Source: Actinomycetes bacterium
GTDB taxonomy: Bacteria > Actinomycetota > Acidimicrobiia > Acidimicrobiales > RAAP-2
Assembly: GCA_021779855.1 (NCBI GenBank)
Contig: JAJXZW010000011.1
Coordinates: 1 to 64,000, forward strand
Length of the DNA stretch: 64,000 nt
Direction of reading: 5' to 3'
In this document: piece by piece, positions 5,482 through 52,618 of the stretch
Position numbering within the stretch: the first letter of the stretch is position 1
Layout of the letters: each line of letters starts with the position of its first letter
The notes under the pieces: generated by a model
Told to the model about the DNA's origin: nothing
Databases searched by the model: none
What the model saw: the letters and a program-made list of their open reading frames with translations, nothing else
Translations under genes and position numbers: made by a program

Positions 5482-5626
5482 GGGCCCTCCTCGGGCGACA
5501 CCCTAGCCAAGGCCGACCCGCGCGCCGGGCACACGGGACCGGCCGGGGGCCGGGGGTAGAGTCGGGAGGCGCCGTCGTCCGCCCGCGGGACGGGCCGCGA
5601 CCGGCGACGACACGGCTAGGAGAGTC

Positions 5627-6823
5627 ATGAAGGTTCTGGTCCTCGGTGGAGACGGCTTCTGCGGGTGGCCCACCTCGTTGCACCTGTCGGACATCGGCCA
5701 CGACGTGACGATCGTCGACAACCTGAGCCGCCGGATGATCGACATCGAGCTCGAGGTCGAGTCGCTGACGCCCATCCGCCCGATCGGCGAGCGCCTGGCG
5801 GTCTGGCGGACGCTCGCCGGCAAGGAGATCGGGTTCGTCAACCTGGACCTGGCCGAGGAGTACGACCGGCTCGAGGCCCTCATCCGCGACCTCGCGCCCG
5901 ACGCGATCGTCCACTTCGGCGAGCAGCGGGCCGCCCCCTACTCGATGCGCTCGGTCGCGGCCAAGCGCTACACCGTCGACAACAACGTGCGCGCGACCCA
6001 CAACGTGCTGGTCGCGGTGGTGGCCTCGGGCCTCGACGTCGCCGTCGTGCACCTGGGCACGATGGGCGTCTACGGCTACGGCTGGTCGGGCTCGGCCCCG
6101 ATCCCCGAGGGGTACCTCACGGTGAAGGTCCCCACCCCCGACGGCGAGATCGACCGGGAGATCCTCCACCCGGCCAACCCCGGCTCGGTGTACCACATGA
6201 CCAAGACGCTCGACCAGCTGCTCTTCGCCTTCTACGCGAAGAACGACCGGCTGCGGGTCACCGACCTCCACCAGGGGATCGTCTGGGGGACCCAGACGCC
6301 CCAGACGGCGCTCGACGAGCGGCTCATCAACCGCTTCGACTACGACGGCGACTACGGCACGGTCCTCAACCGCTTCCTCATGCAGGCGGCCATCGGCCAC
6401 CCGCTCACCGTGCACGGCACCGGCGGCCAGACGCGGGCCTTCATCCACATCCGCGACACCGTGCGCTGCATCCAGATCGCCCTGGAGAACCCGCCGGCCA
6501 GCGGGGACCGGGTCAAGGTCTTCAACCAGGTGACCGAGACCCACCGGGTGCGCGACCTCGCCGAACTCGTCTCCAGGCTGACCGGGGTCGACGTGGCCTA
6601 CCTGCCCAACCCGCGGGTCGAGGCCGACGAGAACGAGCTCAACGTCGAGCGCGAGCAGTTCGTGGCGCTCGGCCTCGACCCGACGTTCCTCTCGGAGGGT
6701 CTGCTCGAGGAGGTCCGCGACGTCGCCTCGCGCTACAAGGACCGGGCCGACACGAGCAAGATCGTGGCCCGCTCGGTGTGGCGCCGTGGGATGGAGGTCG
6801 CGCCCGACCTCGTGATCCGCTAG
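5627..6823 (+). CDS. sqdB: UDP-sulfoquinovose synthase (SQD1/SqdB family)
   Basis: A 398-residue extended SDR enzyme that makes UDP-sulfoquinovose from UDP-glucose and sulfite, the head-group donor for the sulfolipid SQDG. The match to plant and cyanobacterial SQD1 is unusually clear: GGDGFCGWPT (8-16) in the NAD-binding turn, HFGEQRAAPYSM (96-107), GTMGVYGYG with Thr145, YHMTK with Tyr189 and Lys193, RFDYDGDYGTVLNRF and GHPLTVHGTGGQTR. Thr145, Tyr189 and Lys193 are the expected catalytic triad. AGGAGAG lies 6 nt before ATG. No SqdX/SqdD-type glycosyltransferase is adjacent, so the lipid-forming step must be encoded elsewhere if it exists. An S-layer or glycoprotein sulfosugar role, as for archaeal Agl3, is the alternative. 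Confidence 0.9.
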   Translation: MKVLVLGGDGFCGWPTSLHLSDIGHDVTIVDNLSRRMIDIELEVESLTPIRPIGERLAVWRTLAGKEIGFVNLDLAEEYDRLEALIRDLAPDAIVHFGEQRAAPYSMRSVAAKRYTVDNNVRATHNVLVAVVASGLDVAVVHLGTMGVYGYGWSGSAPIPEGYLTVKVPTPDGEIDREILHPANPGSVYHMTKTLDQLLFAFYAKNDRLRVTDLHQGIVWGTQTPQTALDERLINRFDYDGDYGTVLNRFLMQAAIGHPLTVHGTGGQTRAFIHIRDTVRCIQIALENPPASGDRVKVFNQVTETHRVRDLAELVSRLTGVDVAYLPNPRVEADENELNVEREQFVALGLDPTFLSEGLLEEVRDVASRYKDRADTSKIVARSVWRRGMEVAPDLVIR

Positions 6824-6865: not shown

Positions 6866-7336
6866 ATGCCCCACTCCTCGATCTACGAGTACGTCCGCCA
6901 CCCGCGCGCGGCCGAGTTGCGCGCAGGGCGGCCGGTCAAGACCTCCGACCTGCGCCGGCCCCGCAGCGACAGCTGGGTCGCCCGGCTGAACTCGAAGGTC
7001 GGCCTGCGGGTGACCCTGATCGTGGGCACCATGTGGTGCGCCTACCTCTTCAGCGTGATCGCCCTGGTGGCGCTGCCCTCCGCCTTCCACCAGGGCGTCT
7101 ACTACGTCGTGGTCTGGCTGAGCTCGAGCTTCCTGCAGCTGGTGCTGCTGCCGATCATCATCGTGGGCCAGAACATCCAGGCCGCGGCCGCCGACCGGCG
7201 CGCCGAGGAGACCTACAAGGACGCCGAGGCAGTCCTGAAGGAGGCCGAGGAGATCCAGAGGCACCTGCTCGCCCAGGACGAGGTGATCGCCTCGATCCTC
7301 ACCCGGCTCGAGGCGGCGGTCCCGCCGGCCGGCTAG
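6866..7336 (+). CDS. Conserved small membrane protein, DUF1003-like
   Basis: A 156-residue protein with a soluble N-terminus, two transmembrane segments (about 52-74 and 84-106: LRVTLIVGTMWCAYLFSVIA and LQLVLLPIIIVGQNIQ) and a charged coiled-coil tail (about 108-150). The VGTMWCAYLF and IIVGQNIQAAAADRRAE motifs are widely conserved in actinobacterial DUF1003-like proteins of unknown function. A GAGGAT -10-like box (6854-6859) ends 6 nt before ATG and there is no ribosome site, so it is probably leaderless. It converges on the double TetR gene with 3 nt between stop codons. Confidence 0.75.
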   Translation: MPHSSIYEYVRHPRAAELRAGRPVKTSDLRRPRSDSWVARLNSKVGLRVTLIVGTMWCAYLFSVIALVALPSAFHQGVYYVVVWLSSSFLQLVLLPIIIVGQNIQAAAADRRAEETYKDAEAVLKEAEEIQRHLLAQDEVIASILTRLEAAVPPAG

Positions 7337-17066: not shown

Positions 17067-18608
17067 CTAGCTGGGGGGTTCGCCCGGGATCGCGAAGAGG
17101 GGGTGCCAGGGCGAGGCGGCGGCGTCGACGAGGGCGCCCGAGGGCCGAGCGCCGACGTTGTACCACTTCGCCTGGTAGGGCTGGCCCCGGTAGAGGACCC
17201 GGTCGCCACTCCGGTAGACGCCCACCAGGCTCCATTCCGGGTAGGTCCCCGTGGGGACGGTCGTCGTGGTGGGTGGGTGGTCGCCGACGAGCACGGGTCC
17301 CAGCAGGGTCCACGGTGACGTCCACGGGTCGGTCGTCGCCGCCGGGTCACTGCCCGAGTTGTACCAGCGGGCCTCGTACACGTAGCCCGAGCGCACCACC
17401 TTGTAGCCCTGCACGTAGGAGGCCTGGGGCTGCCAGAGGGGGTAGGGCGCGTCCGCGGGGTTGGTGTCGAGGGCGAGCGGCGTCCCCGCGACGCGGGTGG
17501 CCGAGGTCATCGTCCCCTTGAGCCGGCCGAAGACCCGGCTGAAGCCGAGCACTCCCTGGGTGACCCCGGAACAACTCGTCGCGAGCACGCCGTTCTCGAC
17601 GGCGGTGCCCGTCCCGCACGGCGCGTCGCGGTTGAGCGACCACATGGAGAGCCGAGCGAGGTGGTTCGCGCGGGCGAAGTCGGCCACGGACGTGGCGTCG
17701 GCGAGCGACACTGACTCGCCGGGCGAGTCGTTCTGGCCGATCATCACGGTCACCCCGAGGTGCGACCAGAGGTTCGCGTTTAAGAGCCCGTCGCCGTACT
17801 GGTTGGCCAGCTTCTGGAACTGAGCGGCGGTGTCCGTCACGGTCGTCTTGATGGCGGTGGCCATGTCGCCTATGGGCTGGCCGTAGTTCATGGCCATGAC
17901 GTTCACCCCGGCCAGGGGCACGTGGTGGGAGAGGAGCGCCGCGATCTGCGCCAGGGACCCGGTGCCGAGCCCCTCGAGGGAGCCGGGCAGGGTCAGCCAG
18001 ACGTGGGCCCTCGCGAGGGGGCCGCCCCTCCTGGTGTCGATCGCGAGAGCCTCGGCCCGGCGCTGGGTCGCGGCCGCGTCGGACAGGGCGGCGCCCTCCA
18101 CGTCGAAGTCGATGGTGGAGACGTGATAGCGGCGAGCCACCTGCGCGTAGTCGCCGGCGAGGGCGGTGGTCGTGTGGCAGGCGCTGGCCAGCGGGGTGTT
18201 GGCCTGTCCGCCGAACGACACAGCGACGCTCGCGCCGGTCGACTCGAACTGGGTGATGCGCAGCCTCAGGTCGAGGCTCTGGTCGGCCTGGTCGAGGGTG
18301 TAGGCGCCGCCCCAGCTGGGCTGGCACGGGTTGCTCGGCGACGCGACGACGAAGCCGAGCACGGCCTGGCGCGCCGGGTCCATCGCGGCCACCTGGAAGT
18401 TCTCCGTGGGGGTCGCGGTCACGTCGACGTAGGGGGCGAAGAAGGTCGCCGGGGTCTCGGCCGCCGAGGTGAGGTTGTAGCGCACGACGAGGGGCACCCC
18501 GTAGGCCAGGCCGCTGAGGACGAGGAGCGCCACGAGGACGCGCCACGGCGAGAGCCGCCGGCGGGCCGTCACGGGCGACCGGGTGGGTGAGGGGAGGGAT
18601 TCCGACAT
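17067..18608 (-). CDS. GH18-type glycosidase with two C-terminal CBM5/12 modules, membrane anchored
   Basis: A 513-residue exported protein. An N-terminal anchor (about 22-42) is followed by a GH18 barrel (about 60-375) and two carbohydrate-binding modules of the CBM5/12 type: YPLWQPQASYVQGYKVVRSG plus YVYEARWYNSG (about 390-440), and YPEWSLVGVYRSGDRVLYRG plus QPYQAKWYN (about 460-505), joined by a Thr-rich linker. The active-site strand is STIDFDVEG: the D-x-D-x-E of chitinases is kept, but the first Asp of DxxDxDxE is Ser. Actinobacterial GH18 proteins with DFDIEG are close relatives. Likely substrate is a GlcNAc-containing polymer, inferred only. Divergent from the GT2 synthase. Confidence 0.82.
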   Translation of the reverse strand: MSESLPSPTRSPVTARRRLSPWRVLVALLVLSGLAYGVPLVVRYNLTSAAETPATFFAPYVDVTATPTENFQVAAMDPARQAVLGFVVASPSNPCQPSWGGAYTLDQADQSLDLRLRITQFESTGASVAVSFGGQANTPLASACHTTTALAGDYAQVARRYHVSTIDFDVEGAALSDAAATQRRAEALAIDTRRGGPLARAHVWLTLPGSLEGLGTGSLAQIAALLSHHVPLAGVNVMAMNYGQPIGDMATAIKTTVTDTAAQFQKLANQYGDGLLNANLWSHLGVTVMIGQNDSPGESVSLADATSVADFARANHLARLSMWSLNRDAPCGTGTAVENGVLATSCSGVTQGVLGFSRVFGRLKGTMTSATRVAGTPLALDTNPADAPYPLWQPQASYVQGYKVVRSGYVYEARWYNSGSDPAATTDPWTSPWTLLGPVLVGDHPPTTTTVPTGTYPEWSLVGVYRSGDRVLYRGQPYQAKWYNVGARPSGALVDAAASPWHPLFAIPGEPPS

Positions 18609-18798: not shown

Positions 18799-21093
18799 GT
18801 GACCTCAACGCAGACCCACGCCGTCCGACGTCGCGGTCGGTTCTACCGCGATCCCCTCGTCCCGTTCCCCCGTCGCGTCACCGAGCGGCGGATGGGCGCC
18901 GGCAGGACCGCGATCGTCGTCACGGCCGTGGCGTGGATCGCCTACGTCGTCGTCTGGGTCGATCGGGAGTTCCTCGAGCACAACGGCGTGACCCCGTTCG
19001 GCCACCTCGCGGCCGAGACGTACCTGGCGATGGTGACCCTCCTGACCATCTCCTCCATGGCGTACCTGATCTCGCGCCAGGGCTACTTCTACCGCGCGCG
19101 GGCCCATCGACGGACCCCGCGCGCACTGCTCGACGACCTCTACGACAAGGCGAGCCCTCGGGTCACGGTCCTCGTCCCCTCGTACCGCGAGGAGGCCCAC
19201 GTCGTGAAGGCGACCCTCCTCTCGGCGGCGCTGCAGCGCGTCGCGGGCCTCGACGTGGTCCTGCTCATCGACGACCCGCCCGCGGCCCACTCCGAGAAGG
19301 AGGAGGCCCTCCTGCGCGGTGCGCGTGAGCTGCCCGGTGAGGTCCAGGCGATCATCGACGAGCCGGCTCGCCTCTTCGGCGCCCGCTACGCCGCCTTCGT
19401 CGAGCGCGGCGCGCGGGACGAGGAGCTGACCCTCAGCGACATGGACGACCTCGCCGACTGCATGGAGGGCGCGGCTCGTTGGCTCCAGACCCTGGCCGAG
19501 GAGTACCCCGTGGTGGACCACGTGGACGACTTCTTGTGCGAGTTCGTCCTCAAGAGCGTCGCGGCGAGCCTCCTGGTCGACGCCACGGCCCTGCGCACCG
19601 CGAGGGAGAACGGCGTCGTGCTGAGCGCCACGCGCATGGCCCACTTCTACCGCCGTGTCTGGGCGACGTTCGACGTCCGCCTGACCAGCTTCGAGCGCAA
19701 GCTCTACGCCTCGCTGTCGCACGAGCCCAATAAGGCGAGCAATCTCAACTCCTACATCGGCCTGATGGGCCGCAGCTTCATCGACGTCGGAACCGAGGTC
19801 GGCCGCCTGCTGGTCCCGGCCGAGGCCCCCGAGGCGGACCTCACGGTCGACAACCCGGACTACGTCGTCACCCTCGACGCCGACTCCCTCTTGCTGCCCG
19901 AGTACCTCGAGCGCCTGATCTTCCAGATGGAGCAGCCGCACCATGCCCGCGTCGCCGTCATCCAGACCCCCTACAGTGCCTACCCGAACCCCGAGTCGCG
20001 ACTGGAGCGCGTCGCGGGCGCGACGACGGACCTCCAGCACCTCCTGCACCAGGGACTCGGCCACTACGACGCGGAGTTCTGGGTGGGCGCCAATGCGGTG
20101 ATCCGCAAGGGCGCCCTCGACGCCATCGAGCGGGTGGAGCACCTCGGCAACTGGGAGATCCGCAGCTACATCAGCGACCGGACGGTGATCGAGGACACCG
20201 AGTCGACCATCGACCTGCGCGTGCGTGACTGGGACGTGGAGAACTATCCCGAGCGCCTCGCCTACAGCGCCACGCCGCCCGACTTCGGCTCGCTGTGCAT
20301 TCAGCGCCGCCGCTGGGCCACGGGGGGCCTGGTGATCCTGCCGTCCCTCTGGGGGCTCGTGCGGGCGCGGCGACGCCGCGAGCAGCAGACGCGGCTGGAG
20401 GAGGTCTTCCTACGGGCCAACTACCTGTCGTCGATCGCCTGGACGTCGCTATCGCTCATCGCGATCCTCGCCTTGCCCTACAGCCAGCTGCTCCTCACGC
20501 CGATCCTGGTCGCGATCGTCGCCCCGTACTTCCTCGCCATGGCCTCGGATTTGCGCTACTGCGGCTATCGGCGTCGCGACGTCGTATGGATCTACGCGCT
20601 CAACCTGCTGCTGCTCGCGGTCAACATCACCGGGACGATCGCCTCGCTCATCCAGCTCCTCACCGGGGGAAAGGGCACCTTCGTACGCACACCCAAAGTG
20701 CGAAATCGGACCCGGACCGCACTGTGGTTCGCCCTGGTGCCGTACCTGCTGCTGGTCCTCGTCGCGCTGATCGTCGCGGTCGACGTGCAGAGGCACCACT
20801 GGCTCAACGCGACCTTCATCGGGCTCAACGGGCTGTGCCTGCTCCTCGGAGTCGTCTTCTTGATGGGGGTGATCGGGTCCCTGTCGGACATCCTCTACCA
20901 GGCCTTCCAGACGCTGTATCGCTACGAGCCCGAGATCGTCGACGTGGGGCCGACCCCCCAGTCCGTCCTGGCCAACCCCGCGGTGGCGGACTGGTCGAGC
21001 GTCCTGCAGCCGGACCTGATAGCTCGCCGCTCGTCGCCGCACGGCGGCATCGACGGCGAAGCCCCCACGTCGGCCCGCTCGGGCGAGGGTTGA
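18799..21093 (+). CDS. GT2 (cellulose/chitin-synthase-like) membrane glycosyltransferase with large insertion
   Basis: A 764-residue processive-type family 2 glycosyltransferase. Two membrane helices (about 36-56, 74-93) precede the catalytic domain (120-510), and about five more follow (545-705). Motifs in order are LVPSYREE (125-132), the first aspartates IDDPP (157-161), NKASNLN (311-317), the metal-binding DAD (360-362), IEDTES (464-469) and QRRRW (502-506). In ordinary CesA-like enzymes the first Asp and NK-x-x-x-LN are about 30-40 residues apart; here about 150 helical residues are inserted (162-310). The product is probably an extracellular polysaccharide. The divergent GH18/CBM gene suggests a synthase-hydrolase pair. 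Confidence 0.85.
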   Translation: MTSTQTHAVRRRGRFYRDPLVPFPRRVTERRMGAGRTAIVVTAVAWIAYVVVWVDREFLEHNGVTPFGHLAAETYLAMVTLLTISSMAYLISRQGYFYRARAHRRTPRALLDDLYDKASPRVTVLVPSYREEAHVVKATLLSAALQRVAGLDVVLLIDDPPAAHSEKEEALLRGARELPGEVQAIIDEPARLFGARYAAFVERGARDEELTLSDMDDLADCMEGAARWLQTLAEEYPVVDHVDDFLCEFVLKSVAASLLVDATALRTARENGVVLSATRMAHFYRRVWATFDVRLTSFERKLYASLSHEPNKASNLNSYIGLMGRSFIDVGTEVGRLLVPAEAPEADLTVDNPDYVVTLDADSLLLPEYLERLIFQMEQPHHARVAVIQTPYSAYPNPESRLERVAGATTDLQHLLHQGLGHYDAEFWVGANAVIRKGALDAIERVEHLGNWEIRSYISDRTVIEDTESTIDLRVRDWDVENYPERLAYSATPPDFGSLCIQRRRWATGGLVILPSLWGLVRARRRREQQTRLEEVFLRANYLSSIAWTSLSLIAILALPYSQLLLTPILVAIVAPYFLAMASDLRYCGYRRRDVVWIYALNLLLLAVNITGTIASLIQLLTGGKGTFVRTPKVRNRTRTALWFALVPYLLLVLVALIVAVDVQRHHWLNATFIGLNGLCLLLGVVFLMGVIGSLSDILYQAFQTLYRYEPEIVDVGPTPQSVLANPAVADWSSVLQPDLIARRSSPHGGIDGEAPTSARSGEG

Positions 21094-38560: not shown

Positions 38561-41471
<2,911 letters not shown>

Positions 41472-48512: not shown

Positions 48513-48573
48513 GGGTGCATGGTAGGCGGCGAGCCGAATGGCCCGGGCCCGCGCTGCGGGTAGGATTCTGCGC

Positions 48574-48658
48574 GGGTCGGTGCCCGAGTGGCCAATGGGA
48601 TCTGGCTGTAAACCAGACGGCGTAGCCTACGGGGGTTCGAATCCCTCCCGGCCCACCA
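48574..48658 (+). tRNA. tRNA-Tyr (GTA)
   Basis: An 85-nt class II tRNA with encoded CCA. Acceptor GGGTCGG/CCGGCCC and discriminator A. The anticodon loop CTGTAAA gives GTA. The long variable arm (ACGGCGTAGCCTACG region) fits bacterial tRNA-Tyr. A TAGGAT -10-like box lies at 48561-48566, close upstream. Confidence 0.95.
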
Positions 48659-48726
48659 CGGAGCCCGGCTCGCCCGGGCCGGCGCGCCCCGGCGGCACTA
48701 CGGTGTCGGGCGGCGAGAGGAGAGGC

Positions 48727-50349
48727 GTGAGGCGGATCGGGGCGTGGGCGCGGGCGGTGCGTCACACCTACGAGCGGCTCGCCTCGGGCTTCGAGTCGGG
48801 TGTCCAGCTCCTCGAGCGGCGCTACACCCCCCTCGGGCGCTTCAACCCGGGGCCCTTCGAGGGGTGGGGCTTCCTCTGGCGGCCGGCCCTCCAGGGGTTC
48901 GTGGCCATGTGCCTCATCCTCGCGGGCTCGTCGTTCACCAACTCGCCCTTCAAGCTGGACATGGCCGGCACCTGGTTCTTCGGCGAGCCGTCGTCGGCCC
49001 AGACGGGCACGCCCTCGACGACCAAGTACATGCTCTCGGTGGTGCTCGTCTACGGCGGGCTCCTGCTGCTGATGCGGGTCTGGCTGCGCCTGGCCGAGAT
49101 CGTGAGGCTCCACCACGGCGCCAGCCTGCGCCGGCTGTGGTGGACGCTGTTGCTGTGGGCCGCGCCCATGGTCGTGGCCCCGCCGCTCTTCTCGCGCGAC
49201 GTCTTCTCCTACGCGGCCCAGGGCGAGATGACCGCCCATCACCTGAACCCCTACTTCCTCGGGCCGTTCTCGCTCGGCTCGACCCCCTACCTCAACCCCG
49301 TCGACCCGCTGTGGTGGAACACCCCGGCCCCCTACGGCCCCTTCTTCCTCTGGATCGACGGGGCGATCGACCGGCTGACCCTGCACAACCCGCTGGCCAC
49401 GGTGGTGGGGCTGCGCCTGCTGGAGGTGGCCGCGGTCGCCCTCATCGGCGTGGGCGTGGTCATGCTCGCTCGGGGGCTCGGCCGCGACCCCGGCGAGGCG
49501 TTCGTCCTGGCCGCCCTCAACCCGCTGATCCTGCTCACCATCGTCGGCGGCGCCCACAACGACGGGCTCATGACGGGGCTCCTGGTGGTGGGCCTCGGCT
49601 TCGCCGTGAACCGACGTCCGTGGTGGGCCCTGTTCTTCGTCTCGCTGGCCACCGCGGTGAAGGCCCCGGCCGCCATCGGCCTGGCGTTCGTCGCCTGGAA
49701 CTGGCTGCCCCCCGACGCGCCGCTCAAGCAGCGCCTGCAGCCCTTCGCCGCCGGGGGGCTCGTGGCGGGGGCCGTCCTGCTCGTCTCGTCCTACCTCTCG
49801 GGGTTCGGCTTCGGGTGGGTGCGCAACCTGCTCACCCCCGGGACGGTGCGCTCGTGGGCGGCGCCGGCGACGGCCGTGGGGATGGCGGGTGGCAACCTGC
49901 TGCACGCGGTGGGACTCCACATGGTCTCGGTCACCGCGACCATCGGGGCGGCCCGGCTCGTGGGGCTCGTCGCCGCGACGGCCCTGACCCTCTGGCTGCT
50001 CTGGCGATCGGGGGAGAGGGGCTGGGTGCGCTCGCTCGGGGTGTCGCTGGTCCTGTTCGTCGAGCTCGGCCCGGTCGTCCAGCCCTGGTACCTGTCCTGG
50101 GGCCTCGTGGTGCTCGCGGCGAGCTACCGCGGCCGCGAGCACTTCTGGCTGCTGCTGCTCGCGATCACCGGCCCCTTCATCGGCCTGCCCGGCGGGCGGA
50201 ACCTGCTCTCGGACCTGGTGCACTCGAACCCGTTGCTCATCGCGCTCGCCGTCGCGATCCTCGGTGGGGTGCTGGTGCTGCCGCTCGGGCGCTGGACCCA
50301 GTGGTCGTGGCCCGAGCGCGTGGGTGCCCTCGAGCTCGAGCCGGCCTAG
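48727..50349 (+). CDS. MptB-like polyprenol-phosphomannose mannosyltransferase (GT-C fold)
   Basis: A 540-residue protein with about 13 membrane helices. FSRDVFSYAAQGEMTAHHLN followed by PYFLGPF, then WWNTPAPYGPFFLWIDGAID, matches the outward loop of MptB/MptA-type GT-C enzymes, whose catalytic acid is the Asp in SRDVFSY. Later motifs are LNPLILLTIVGGAHNDGLM and VVQPWYLSWGLVVL. These enzymes extend lipomannan-like glycolipids from polyprenyl-phosphomannose on the outer face of the membrane. GTG 48727 has AGGAG upstream. Exact linkage unknown. Confidence 0.8.
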   Translation: MRRIGAWARAVRHTYERLASGFESGVQLLERRYTPLGRFNPGPFEGWGFLWRPALQGFVAMCLILAGSSFTNSPFKLDMAGTWFFGEPSSAQTGTPSTTKYMLSVVLVYGGLLLLMRVWLRLAEIVRLHHGASLRRLWWTLLLWAAPMVVAPPLFSRDVFSYAAQGEMTAHHLNPYFLGPFSLGSTPYLNPVDPLWWNTPAPYGPFFLWIDGAIDRLTLHNPLATVVGLRLLEVAAVALIGVGVVMLARGLGRDPGEAFVLAALNPLILLTIVGGAHNDGLMTGLLVVGLGFAVNRRPWWALFFVSLATAVKAPAAIGLAFVAWNWLPPDAPLKQRLQPFAAGGLVAGAVLLVSSYLSGFGFGWVRNLLTPGTVRSWAAPATAVGMAGGNLLHAVGLHMVSVTATIGAARLVGLVAATALTLWLLWRSGERGWVRSLGVSLVLFVELGPVVQPWYLSWGLVVLAASYRGREHFWLLLLAITGPFIGLPGGRNLLSDLVHSNPLLIALAVAILGGVLVLPLGRWTQWSWPERVGALELEPA

Positions 50350-51308: not shown

Positions 51309-51853
51309 CCCCGGGGGCCGGGGCCCTCCCCGTCCGTGACGGCCGAGCCGTAACGGTGGGGGGTCGACCGCCCTTCACGGTGCGCTGATCCGCCGGCCGC
51401 GGAGCCGCGGCCATGACACCACACCCGCACCGCGTCATCGCCCGCCGGACCGCCGGCCGTCGCGCGGGGGGCGTCGCCCTCGGGCCGGCCGTCCCCTCGC
51501 CGGCCGAGGCCGCCTCGAGCCCCCGGTTCGCCCCGTACGCCGCCCCCGGCCACGACCACGCCGCGGTGGGCGTCCACCGCGACGCCCCCGGGCTCAGACC
51601 CGGGACGACAGCTCGACCGGCCCGCGCCTCGGGCGGATCGAGGCCGACGGCAACTACCCCAGGGGGCGTGCCGTGGGTCGACGGCGCGCGACGTCGCCCT
51701 CACCGGGCGGGGCTACGGGCACGTCGTGGCACGGGGAGGGGATCGAGCCGACGCGGGTATTCTCGACCCGTCGGCACGAGCGCGACGCCCGGGTCGGGGC
51801 GGGGCTCGCCCCGAGGGCTGCTTGGTCCTCGACGCCGGCGCGGAGGACGCCCC
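51309..51853. other. Gene-free GC-rich stretch
   Basis: No gene supported. A 17-nt perfect hairpin-like palindrome, GGCCGCGGAGCCGCGGCC, lies near 51396-51413. Plus-strand scraps (LGRIEADGNYPRG; YGHVVARGGDRADAGILDPS near 51708-51767) might be debris of a lost gene but cannot be assigned. Confidence 0.3.
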
Positions 51854-52618
51854 ATGATCGGTGCCGTGAACGGCTCCACCACAGCGATAGTCCTGGTCGG
51901 TGCGGTCTTCTTGGCGGCGGCCGTCGAGATGGTCGAGGCCCTGACGATCGTGCTCGCGGTCGGTCACACCCGCGGCTGGCGCACGGCCCTCGAGGGGACG
52001 GGCGTCGCCGTCCTCGCCCTGGCGGCCCTGGTGGCGGTGCTGGGGCCGGCCCTGGTGCACGTCCCCTTGAGCGTGTTGCGCCTGGTGGTGGGGGTGGTCC
52101 TTTTGATCTTCGGCCTCCAGTGGCTGCGCAAGGCGGTCCTGCGCTCGGCCGGGATCAAGGCCAAGCACGACGAGGACGCGATCTACGCCGAGATGACCGC
52201 CCGCCTCGCTGTCACCGGGGAGCGGCCGCCGCGGGACCGGGTGGCCTTCGTGGTGGCCTTCAAGGGGGTCTTCCTGGAGGGCCTCGAGATCGTGGTCGCC
52301 GTCTTGACCCTGGGCACCTCGGCCCACCGCCTGGGGCTCGCCGCGACGACGGCCGCGGTGGCCGTCGTCGTCGTCGCGCTGGCCGGGGCGCTCGTCGCCC
52401 GACAGCTCTCCGCGGTGCCCGAGAACGCCATGAAGATGGCCGTCGGGATCATGCTCGTGAGCTACGGGACCTTCTGGACCGGCGAGGGGCTCAAGGTCCG
52501 CTGGCCCGGGGGCGACGTCATGATCGCCGGCCTGGTCGTCGTCTACGCCCTGGCGTCCGCGCTCGTGGTGCGGCTCCTCGCCCCGGGCGCGCGCGAGCCG
52601 GTGGGGGCCCCGCGGTGA
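51854..52618 (+). CDS. COG4280-type membrane protein (TMEM165/UPF0016-like)
   Basis: A 254-residue protein with six or seven membrane segments. FLAAAVEMVEALTIVLAVGH holds an E-x-V-E-A motif, and the second half repeats it as AFKGVFLEGLEIVVAVLTLG, so the protein looks like an internal duplication of the kind seen in cation exchangers of the UPF0016 superfamily. LLIFGLQWLRKAVLRSAG is highly conserved in this family. Ion specificity unknown. ATG 51854 has GGAGG 7 nt upstream; its TGA overlaps the next gene's GTG. Confidence 0.7.
   Translation: MIGAVNGSTTAIVLVGAVFLAAAVEMVEALTIVLAVGHTRGWRTALEGTGVAVLALAALVAVLGPALVHVPLSVLRLVVGVVLLIFGLQWLRKAVLRSAGIKAKHDEDAIYAEMTARLAVTGERPPRDRVAFVVAFKGVFLEGLEIVVAVLTLGTSAHRLGLAATTAAVAVVVVALAGALVARQLSAVPENAMKMAVGIMLVSYGTFWTGEGLKVRWPGGDVMIAGLVVVYALASALVVRLLAPGAREPVGAPR

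Follow-up and report, generated by a model that had tools for sequence, protein, structure and literature searches.

A Val-type UDP-sulfoquinovose synthase homologue in an Acidimicrobiia bacterium and a candidate glycosyltransferase partner

Sulfoquinovose is a sulfur sugar familiar above all from the membranes of plants. It is ranked with the most abundant organosulfur compounds and is described as a product of photosynthetic organisms (PMC12890257, accessible part). The described enzymes that bear most closely on the gene analysed here are SQD1 of Arabidopsis, solved as 1qrr and 1i24; the SqdB proteins of alphaproteobacteria, among which that of R. sphaeroides, encoded in a sqdBDC operon, is required for SQDG (PMC11346425, accessible part); and Agl3 of Sulfolobus acidocaldarius, whose product serves glycoconjugates and so offers a precedent for a non-lipid use (PMC4388408, accessible part). 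Actinobacterial members of the family are also in print, from Mycobacterium vanbaalenii, Propionibacterium freudenreichii and Saccharopolyspora erythraea (PMC4388408, legend of Fig. 1).

The window (the whole stretch of 64,000 nucleotides that was analysed) encodes a further member of this family, in an ATG-started ORF of 398 amino acids that spans exactly the interval given in Table 1 and is confirmed as a real gene. The homologue is present in single copy in its own assembly and is found in 32 of the 36 other genomes of the genus, at 79-97% identity; one of these copies is in two pieces (G004) and two are partial (G008 and G020), and the gene is absent from G001, G009, G026 and G027.

Table 1. 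Coordinates of the sqdB homologue, its motifs and its conserved neighbour in the window
Feature	Position	Strand	Basis or remark
UDP-sulfoquinovose synthase homologue (SqdB, Val-type), 398 aa	5627..6823	+	ORF and translation, SQD1 match, NCBIfam, clade, congeners
AGGAG, ribosome-binding-like site, 4-base spacer before ATG	5618..5622	+	Read in the sequence; consensus inference only
GTMGVYG motif, residues 144-150	6056..6076	+	T145 and M146 kept; Val148 where SQD1 and Agl3 have Glu
SVYHMTK, residues 187-193	6185..6205	+	Y189, H190 and K193 of the YxxxK catalytic motif
DUF1003 small protein (Pfam PF06210), conserved neighbour	6866..7336	+	42 bp downstream of sqdB

The SqdB homologue and its relatives

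The best PDB matches by phmmer are the two SQD1 structures (E about 1e-102, residues 2-387), and the next solved family is far weaker (E 6e-13). The top NCBIfam model is NF041015, UDP-sulfoquinovose synthase (E 4.9e-98, 328.6 bits); its cut-off of 575 bits is not reached, and is missed as well by SqdB of Sinorhizobium meliloti (331.6 bits) and by a Glu-type SqdB of the family f45 (517.4 bits), while Pfam assigns the window protein to generic epimerase/dehydratase families only. Alignment places the active-site residues at H96, R101, T145, M146, Y189, H190 and K193, all of them invariant across 40 aligned copies (the window SqdB and 39 of the 80 named loci). The SQD1 match, the best-scoring model and the catalytic residues bear out the original prediction of a UDP-sulfoquinovose synthase homologue in an actinobacterium, including Thr145, Tyr189 and Lys193, which are found in the protein's own numbering, and the searches made did not bring up characterized epimerases of another specificity as the closest homologues.

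The prediction passed over Val148, which replaces the Glu of the GTMGEYG motif, and the longer loop after it. We do not regard this Glu as a defining residue of the SqdB family as a whole, because the S. meliloti and Rhodobacterales enzymes encoded in sqdB-sqdD loci also have Val. In Agl3, replacement of the equivalent Glu by Ala leaves 12.4% of the activity, whereas mutation of the Thr leaves it intact (PMC4388408, accessible part); thus the position of Val148, and not the Thr, is the most telling one. Among 129 distinct family proteins gathered, a set made up mostly of close relatives of the window SqdB, so that its counts are not frequencies, the residue is Val in 110, Glu in 12, Asp in one and Lys in one; the other five fall outside the pattern, with GSIGVYG (three, rhizobial) or TTTGVYG (two, haloarchaeal). 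An AlphaFold model computed with 40 close homologues was discarded as too poor (mean pLDDT 58.3, pTM 0.64). The window gene very probably makes UDP-sulfoquinovose.

The enzyme had been labelled plant/cyanobacterial-type, and this label is wrong, since identity is 46% to plant SQD1 versus 62-67% to the alphaproteobacterial SqdBs of sqdB-sqdD(-sqdC) loci, and since in a SqdB tree of 65 rows the window SqdB is placed in a clade of 45 rows (92/93, not starred) that includes the enzymes of S. meliloti and three Rhodobacterales from sqdB-sqdD loci, along with other actinobacterial enzymes, and leaves SQD1 and the Glu-type rows outside. The nearest tree relatives outside the window's family are actinobacterial, from a genome of the same order (G051) and from f54 (100/97 and 100/96, starred), and other actinobacterial Val-type genes, at 67-72% outside the window's family, are closer than the alphaproteobacterial SqdBs. 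Horizontal transfer from alphaproteobacteria was considered and set aside: the Val-type rows of both phyla are intermixed and their deep order is unsure, and no direction is claimed.

A tblastn search of plasmids returned 22 records. Ten of them, from Rhodobacterales, Sinorhizobium and one Rhodococcus plasmid, are the nearest at 62-67%, and the other twelve are at 33-46%. In S. meliloti, Loktanella, Marinovum and Palleronia, sqdB is followed by a GT8/glycogenin-like gene (sqdD, the Pfam assignment having been run on two of these four loci), and in the last three an oxidoreductase/epimerase gene (sqdC-like) follows sqdD; these loci have the same gene arrangement as sqdBDC of R. sphaeroides. The window SqdB resembles their enzymes in identity, in the GTMGVYG motif, in a similarly longer loop and in clade, but it is set apart by the lack of a neighbouring sqdD or sqdC, a genome without an sqdD match, an actinobacterial host and a DUF1003 neighbour. 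With Arabidopsis SQD1 it shares homology over nearly the full length, the equivalents of T145 and of Y182/K186, and the active-site His and Arg, whereas SQD1 has Glu at the position of Val148, a shorter loop and a place outside the clade. Agl3 belongs to the same family and its expected reaction is the same, but it is archaeal and has Glu, and it is compared here by its published description. On Rhizobium/Agrobacterium plasmids, three loci (L134, L197 and L198) hold a third SqdB-like clade, with GSIGVYGY replacing GTMG, beside galactosyltransferase-related genes, and the specificity of this clade may differ.

Distribution and neighbourhood of sqdB

A family member at E<=1e-60 occurs in 100 of 396 Actinomycetota genomes drawn evenly across the phylum, and 25 of these 100 have the Val-type (at least 67% identity, G366 being counted by two fragments), among them all nine sampled genomes of the window's family. 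Together with the published list, this frequency means that an sqdB gene in an actinobacterium is not in itself surprising, and the rarity ascribed to it by the prediction was overstated. One genome (G057) has two SqdB-like proteins, of which one (L048, 8205-10703) has Gly and Gln for the Tyr and Lys of YxxxK and the other (L047) keeps both. Of 327 loci found, 80 named ones were kept; many of these belong to MAGs whose names contain palsa, bog or fen and whose titles read Acidimicrobiaceae, Actinomycetes or uncultured actinobacterium. Six loci (L053, L063, L065, L066, L113 and L124) are titled Acidobacteria/Acidobacteriota or Saccharibacteria, yet are 82-87% identical to the window SqdB and apparently come from mislabelled MAGs.

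NCBIfam and Pfam scans of the ORFs neighbouring sqdB in the window found no glycosyltransferase, in keeping with the earlier statement that neither SqdX nor SqdD is adjacent. The neighbours are MFS, DUF805, TetR and DUF1003 genes only, and a partner of SqdB was therefore not to be had among them. A DUF1003 homologue on the same strand, at most 1.5 kb downstream of sqdB, recurs in 57 of the 76 named congener loci with enough sequence, and homologues of the other neighbours occur anywhere in the congener loci in 17 of 70 (TetR), 9 of 67 (DUF805) and 1 of 59 (MFS). A synthase-like GT2 (18799-21093, +), 12 kb from sqdB, was likewise rejected as the partner, no link to sqdB being seen; it adjoins a CBM5/12 protein in the opposite orientation (17067-18608), and the two may form a separate polysaccharide locus. 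Elsewhere in the window, a GT-C enzyme (48538-50349, +) scores 146.7 bits against the cut-off of 40 of the MptB model, and is likely a polyprenol-phosphomannose-dependent mannosyltransferase, which suggests that polyprenyl-phosphate sugars are used in the window's lineage. A membrane protein (51413-52618) resembles, by eye, one near sqdB in other loci of the family (L123, L185 and L186).

A candidate glycosyltransferase partner

GT2 genes stand beside sqdB in several loci, and one of them, from f45, was used as query against the same 396 genomes at E<=4.8e-51. It finds 75 genes, spread over 69 genomes of which 66 are SqdB-positive; sqdB is no more than 5 kb away for 53 of the 75 genes and no more than 300 bp away for 38. 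The pairs within 5 kb occur in 51 genomes, 16 in f45, the source of the query, and 35 in seven other families (f35, f41, f60, f65, f75, f78 and f83). Fisher's test of the co-occurrence gives p 1.3e-45, a figure that ignores relatedness and is not readable as a probability. At this threshold 34 of the 100 SqdB-positive genomes have no such GT2, and all nine sampled genomes of the window's family are within those 34, with matches at E 1e-38 to 1e-48.

The window's own genome encodes a GT2 (G000:C1:38804-39550) that the f45 query matches at 38810-39499 (37% identity, E 4.5e-40, GT2 domain only). It is unlinked to sqdB, and from inspection by eye we take its flanking genes to be ispH and a COX15-like gene. 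All 11 SqdB-positive genomes of the window's class, and none of its 27 SqdB-negative ones (best 6.2e-32), have a GT2 match better than 1e-37, nine of the 11 being from one family and the cut-off having been chosen after the values were seen. With the own GT2 as query against 24 same-order genomes of 24 other families, matches at E<1e-40 (again a cut-off set once the values were known) occur in four of the five SqdB-positive genomes (G044, G046, G051 and G056) and in none of the 19 negative ones (p 4.7e-4); the GT2 is on the sqdB strand, about 0.2 kb away in G056 and about 1.3 kb away in G046. The fifth SqdB-positive family in this sample, represented by G057, has no such GT2. Within the genus, GT2 is absent from G020, G022 and G036 and only weakly matched in G024, all of which have sqdB, and the four genomes without sqdB all have GT2; incomplete assemblies (73-93% complete) may explain both sets of absences, but their failure to coincide does not favour the pairing.

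In a GT2 tree of 61 rows, chosen by hand and thus showing kinship and not frequency, a branch (93/84.7) sets apart 40 rows, all of them adjacent to sqdB, near it, or from SqdB-positive genomes, with the exception of L215, whose genome (G001) showed no sqdB. The opposite side holds 16 rows of SqdB-negative genomes, three f54 rows and two second copies. In a first tree, which included three other GT2s of the window's genome, the split was weak (31/19), and one of these, the very long branch L204, came out with the SqdB-associated rows. The own GT2 shares a clade of 22 rows (94/100) with the GT2s next to sqdB in f21 (G056), f65 and f72; the GT2 of G046 is outside this clade and groups with those of f45 and Natrinema. 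In the f54 loci, the GT2 is outside the 40-row group and accompanied by LPG_synthase_TM and PIG-V-like genes, and GT-C-type genes are found near sqdB in f45, f54 and f68.

Among named families, these GT2s are related to PpgS, dolichyl-phosphate hexose transferase, AglJ and ArnC, all matched far below their cut-offs (the best equivalog scores being 80.9 of 370 bits for PpgS and 70.4 of 325 for AglJ). The polyprenyl/dolichyl-phosphate sugar synthases PpgS, AglJ and ArnC are the nearest named families of the proposed partner, but it differs from them in scoring below the equivalog cut-offs and in its presumed donor, sulfoquinovose. On a haloarchaeal plasmid, a DUF2304-family gene is separated by two genes from an sqdB-like gene, and a search of the open-access literature found no paper that joins sulfoquinovose with DUF2304.

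In the locus of a Rhodococcus qingshengii plasmid (L133, 2430-13945), a SulP transporter lies upstream of a Val-type sqdB, after which come a weakly BcsB-like protein, a membrane GT2 and an alkyl-sulfatase-type gene; this is possibly a sulfosugar exopolysaccharide locus. Its GT2/BcsB-like pair was rejected as a model for the partner: in the loci compared, the window included, the BcsB-like protein matched nothing but itself, and the GT2 has weak matches in glycosyltransferase loci of the window's genome.

Possible uses of UDP-sulfoquinovose

We favour, with a probability of roughly 55%, the reading that UDP-sulfoquinovose feeds a lipid-linked sulfosugar for a surface glycan. SqdB would bind NAD+, oxidise UDP-glucose at C4 and eliminate water across C5-C6, after which sulfite would add at C6 to give UDP-sulfoquinovose, the mechanism being that published for Agl3. 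CysH, CysD and CysN are encoded together on contig C13 of the window's genome, each scoring above the cut-off of a model; the genome can thus make sulfite, and these enzymes would be its source. From linkage and co-occurrence in relatives, the unlinked GT2 would load sulfoquinovose onto a membrane carrier; in the weakest step, a GT-C enzyme outside the membrane might then move it to a surface glycan or glycoprotein. What we infer is thus the reaction, the partnership of the own GT2, polyprenyl phosphate as acceptor and a surface glycan as destination. Counting against this reading are Val148 in place of Glu, the score below the NF041015 cut-off, the lack of linkage between GT2 and sqdB in the window's genome, the absences that do not coincide in the genus, the lack of GT2 in G057, the grouping of the G046 GT2, the weak 31/19 split, the f54 GT2 and the 34 SqdB-positive genomes of 100 without GT2.

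The main rival, which we consider doubtful, is that UDP-sulfoquinovose is made for true SQDG and that the linked GT2, taking the place of SqdX/SQD2 and SqdD, transfers sulfoquinovose to diacylglycerol, an activity so far unrecognised. The Val-type clade contains enzymes of sqdB-sqdD loci, the R. sphaeroides gene of the sqdBDC operon is needed for SQDG (PMC11346425, accessible part), and the pairing with GT2 by itself says nothing of the acceptor. The named relatives of the GT2, however, are mostly polyprenyl/dolichyl-phosphate sugar synthases, and GT-C-type, flippase-like (by eye) and LPG_synthase_TM genes lie by sqdB in f45 or f54. With S. meliloti SqdD as query (E<=0.01), no SqdD is found in the window's genome, and none in the 100 SqdB-positive Actinomycetota genomes; the single match among the 396 genomes is in G264, which is not SqdB-positive. 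As a control, the query recovered three records of three (itself and two relatives at 62-67%), a range from which a very distant SqdD could escape. The window's genome has six GT4 genes, none over an NCBIfam cut-off and one of them MshA-like (377.4 of 462.5 bits), in a comparison made without an SqdX reference sequence; two (L165 and L166) presumably resemble PimB' and PimA, and to our eye none looks like SqdX. A search of titles and the starts of abstracts in the open-access literature found no report of sulfoquinovose or SQDG in Acidimicrobiia; one paper in which both words occur concerns tomato and biosolids (PMC8709368). The original prediction had offered a dispersed SQDG pathway or a sulfosugar on another glycoconjugate, and as a check a genome search for SqdX/SqdD and sulfite supply genes: the sulfite genes are there and SqdD is not matched, and the second option fits better than the first, because of the missing SqdD match and the kinship of the GT2 partner to polyprenyl-phosphate sugar synthases.

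It is unlikely that the Val-type enzyme makes some other nucleotide sugar without using sulfite, for example the product of a UDP-glucose dehydratase or epimerase, as Val148 in place of the Glu of SQD1 and Agl3, the longer loop and the missed equivalog cut-off might suggest. The same Val is found in the S. meliloti and Rhodobacterales enzymes of sqdB-sqdD loci, and the window SqdB has Met-Gly, as SQD1 does, where dTDP-glucose dehydratases have Asp-Glu. A PAPS reductase gene adjoins a Rhodobacterales Val-type gene in L132 and is one gene away from another in L196; these two plasmid loci, in which no sqdD appears in the stretch shown, look like sqdB variant loci with their own sulfite supply. 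In f45, a cluster of GT2-DUF2304, TMEM260-like, DUF6541, flippase-like (by eye) and epimerase genes occurs with a Val-type SqdB in L174 (a short contig showing only part of the cluster), L175, L176, L177 and L179, and with a Glu-type SqdB in L188, L189 and L193; the neighbours are homologous at 40-68% identity and, on that similarity, taken as orthologous, the TMEM260-like gene not being found in L189. The cluster was not seen around the Val-type genes of L178 and L183 in the stretch fetched. This exchange in place within a conserved cluster argues for one product and suggests that the Val-type and Glu-type enzymes make it in common.

Least probable is that dispersed cytoplasmic glycosyltransferases use the SqdB product to build an exopolysaccharide with no polyprenyl-phosphate monosaccharide involved: some Val-type genes do stand beside other glycosyltransferases (the Rhodococcus plasmid with its weakly BcsB-like protein and GT2, and Rhodobacteraceae M382) and the window has its synthase-like GT2 at 18799-21093, but the partner found across the phylum is a GT2 of the type that loads a single sugar, and the synthase-like gene is 12 kb off with no link seen.

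The Val-type enzymes are a warning that not all members of the SqdB family have the Glu implicated in the catalysis of Agl3. Actinobacteria with SqdB, 100 of the 396 genomes sampled and none with a detected SqdD, are a possible non-plant source of environmental sulfoquinovose. We propose only tentatively the wider reading that across Actinomycetota SqdB and a dedicated GT2 make polyprenyl-phosphate-sulfoquinovose for sulfonated surface glycans, with Val-type and Glu-type enzymes interchangeable. If this holds, sulfoquinovose would have a third role, in addition to those in SQDG and in archaeal glycans, and this role may be the most widespread one in bacteria other than phototrophs; the SqdB-GT2 pair offers a testable route to sulfonated cell-surface glycans in actinobacteria of soil and peat.
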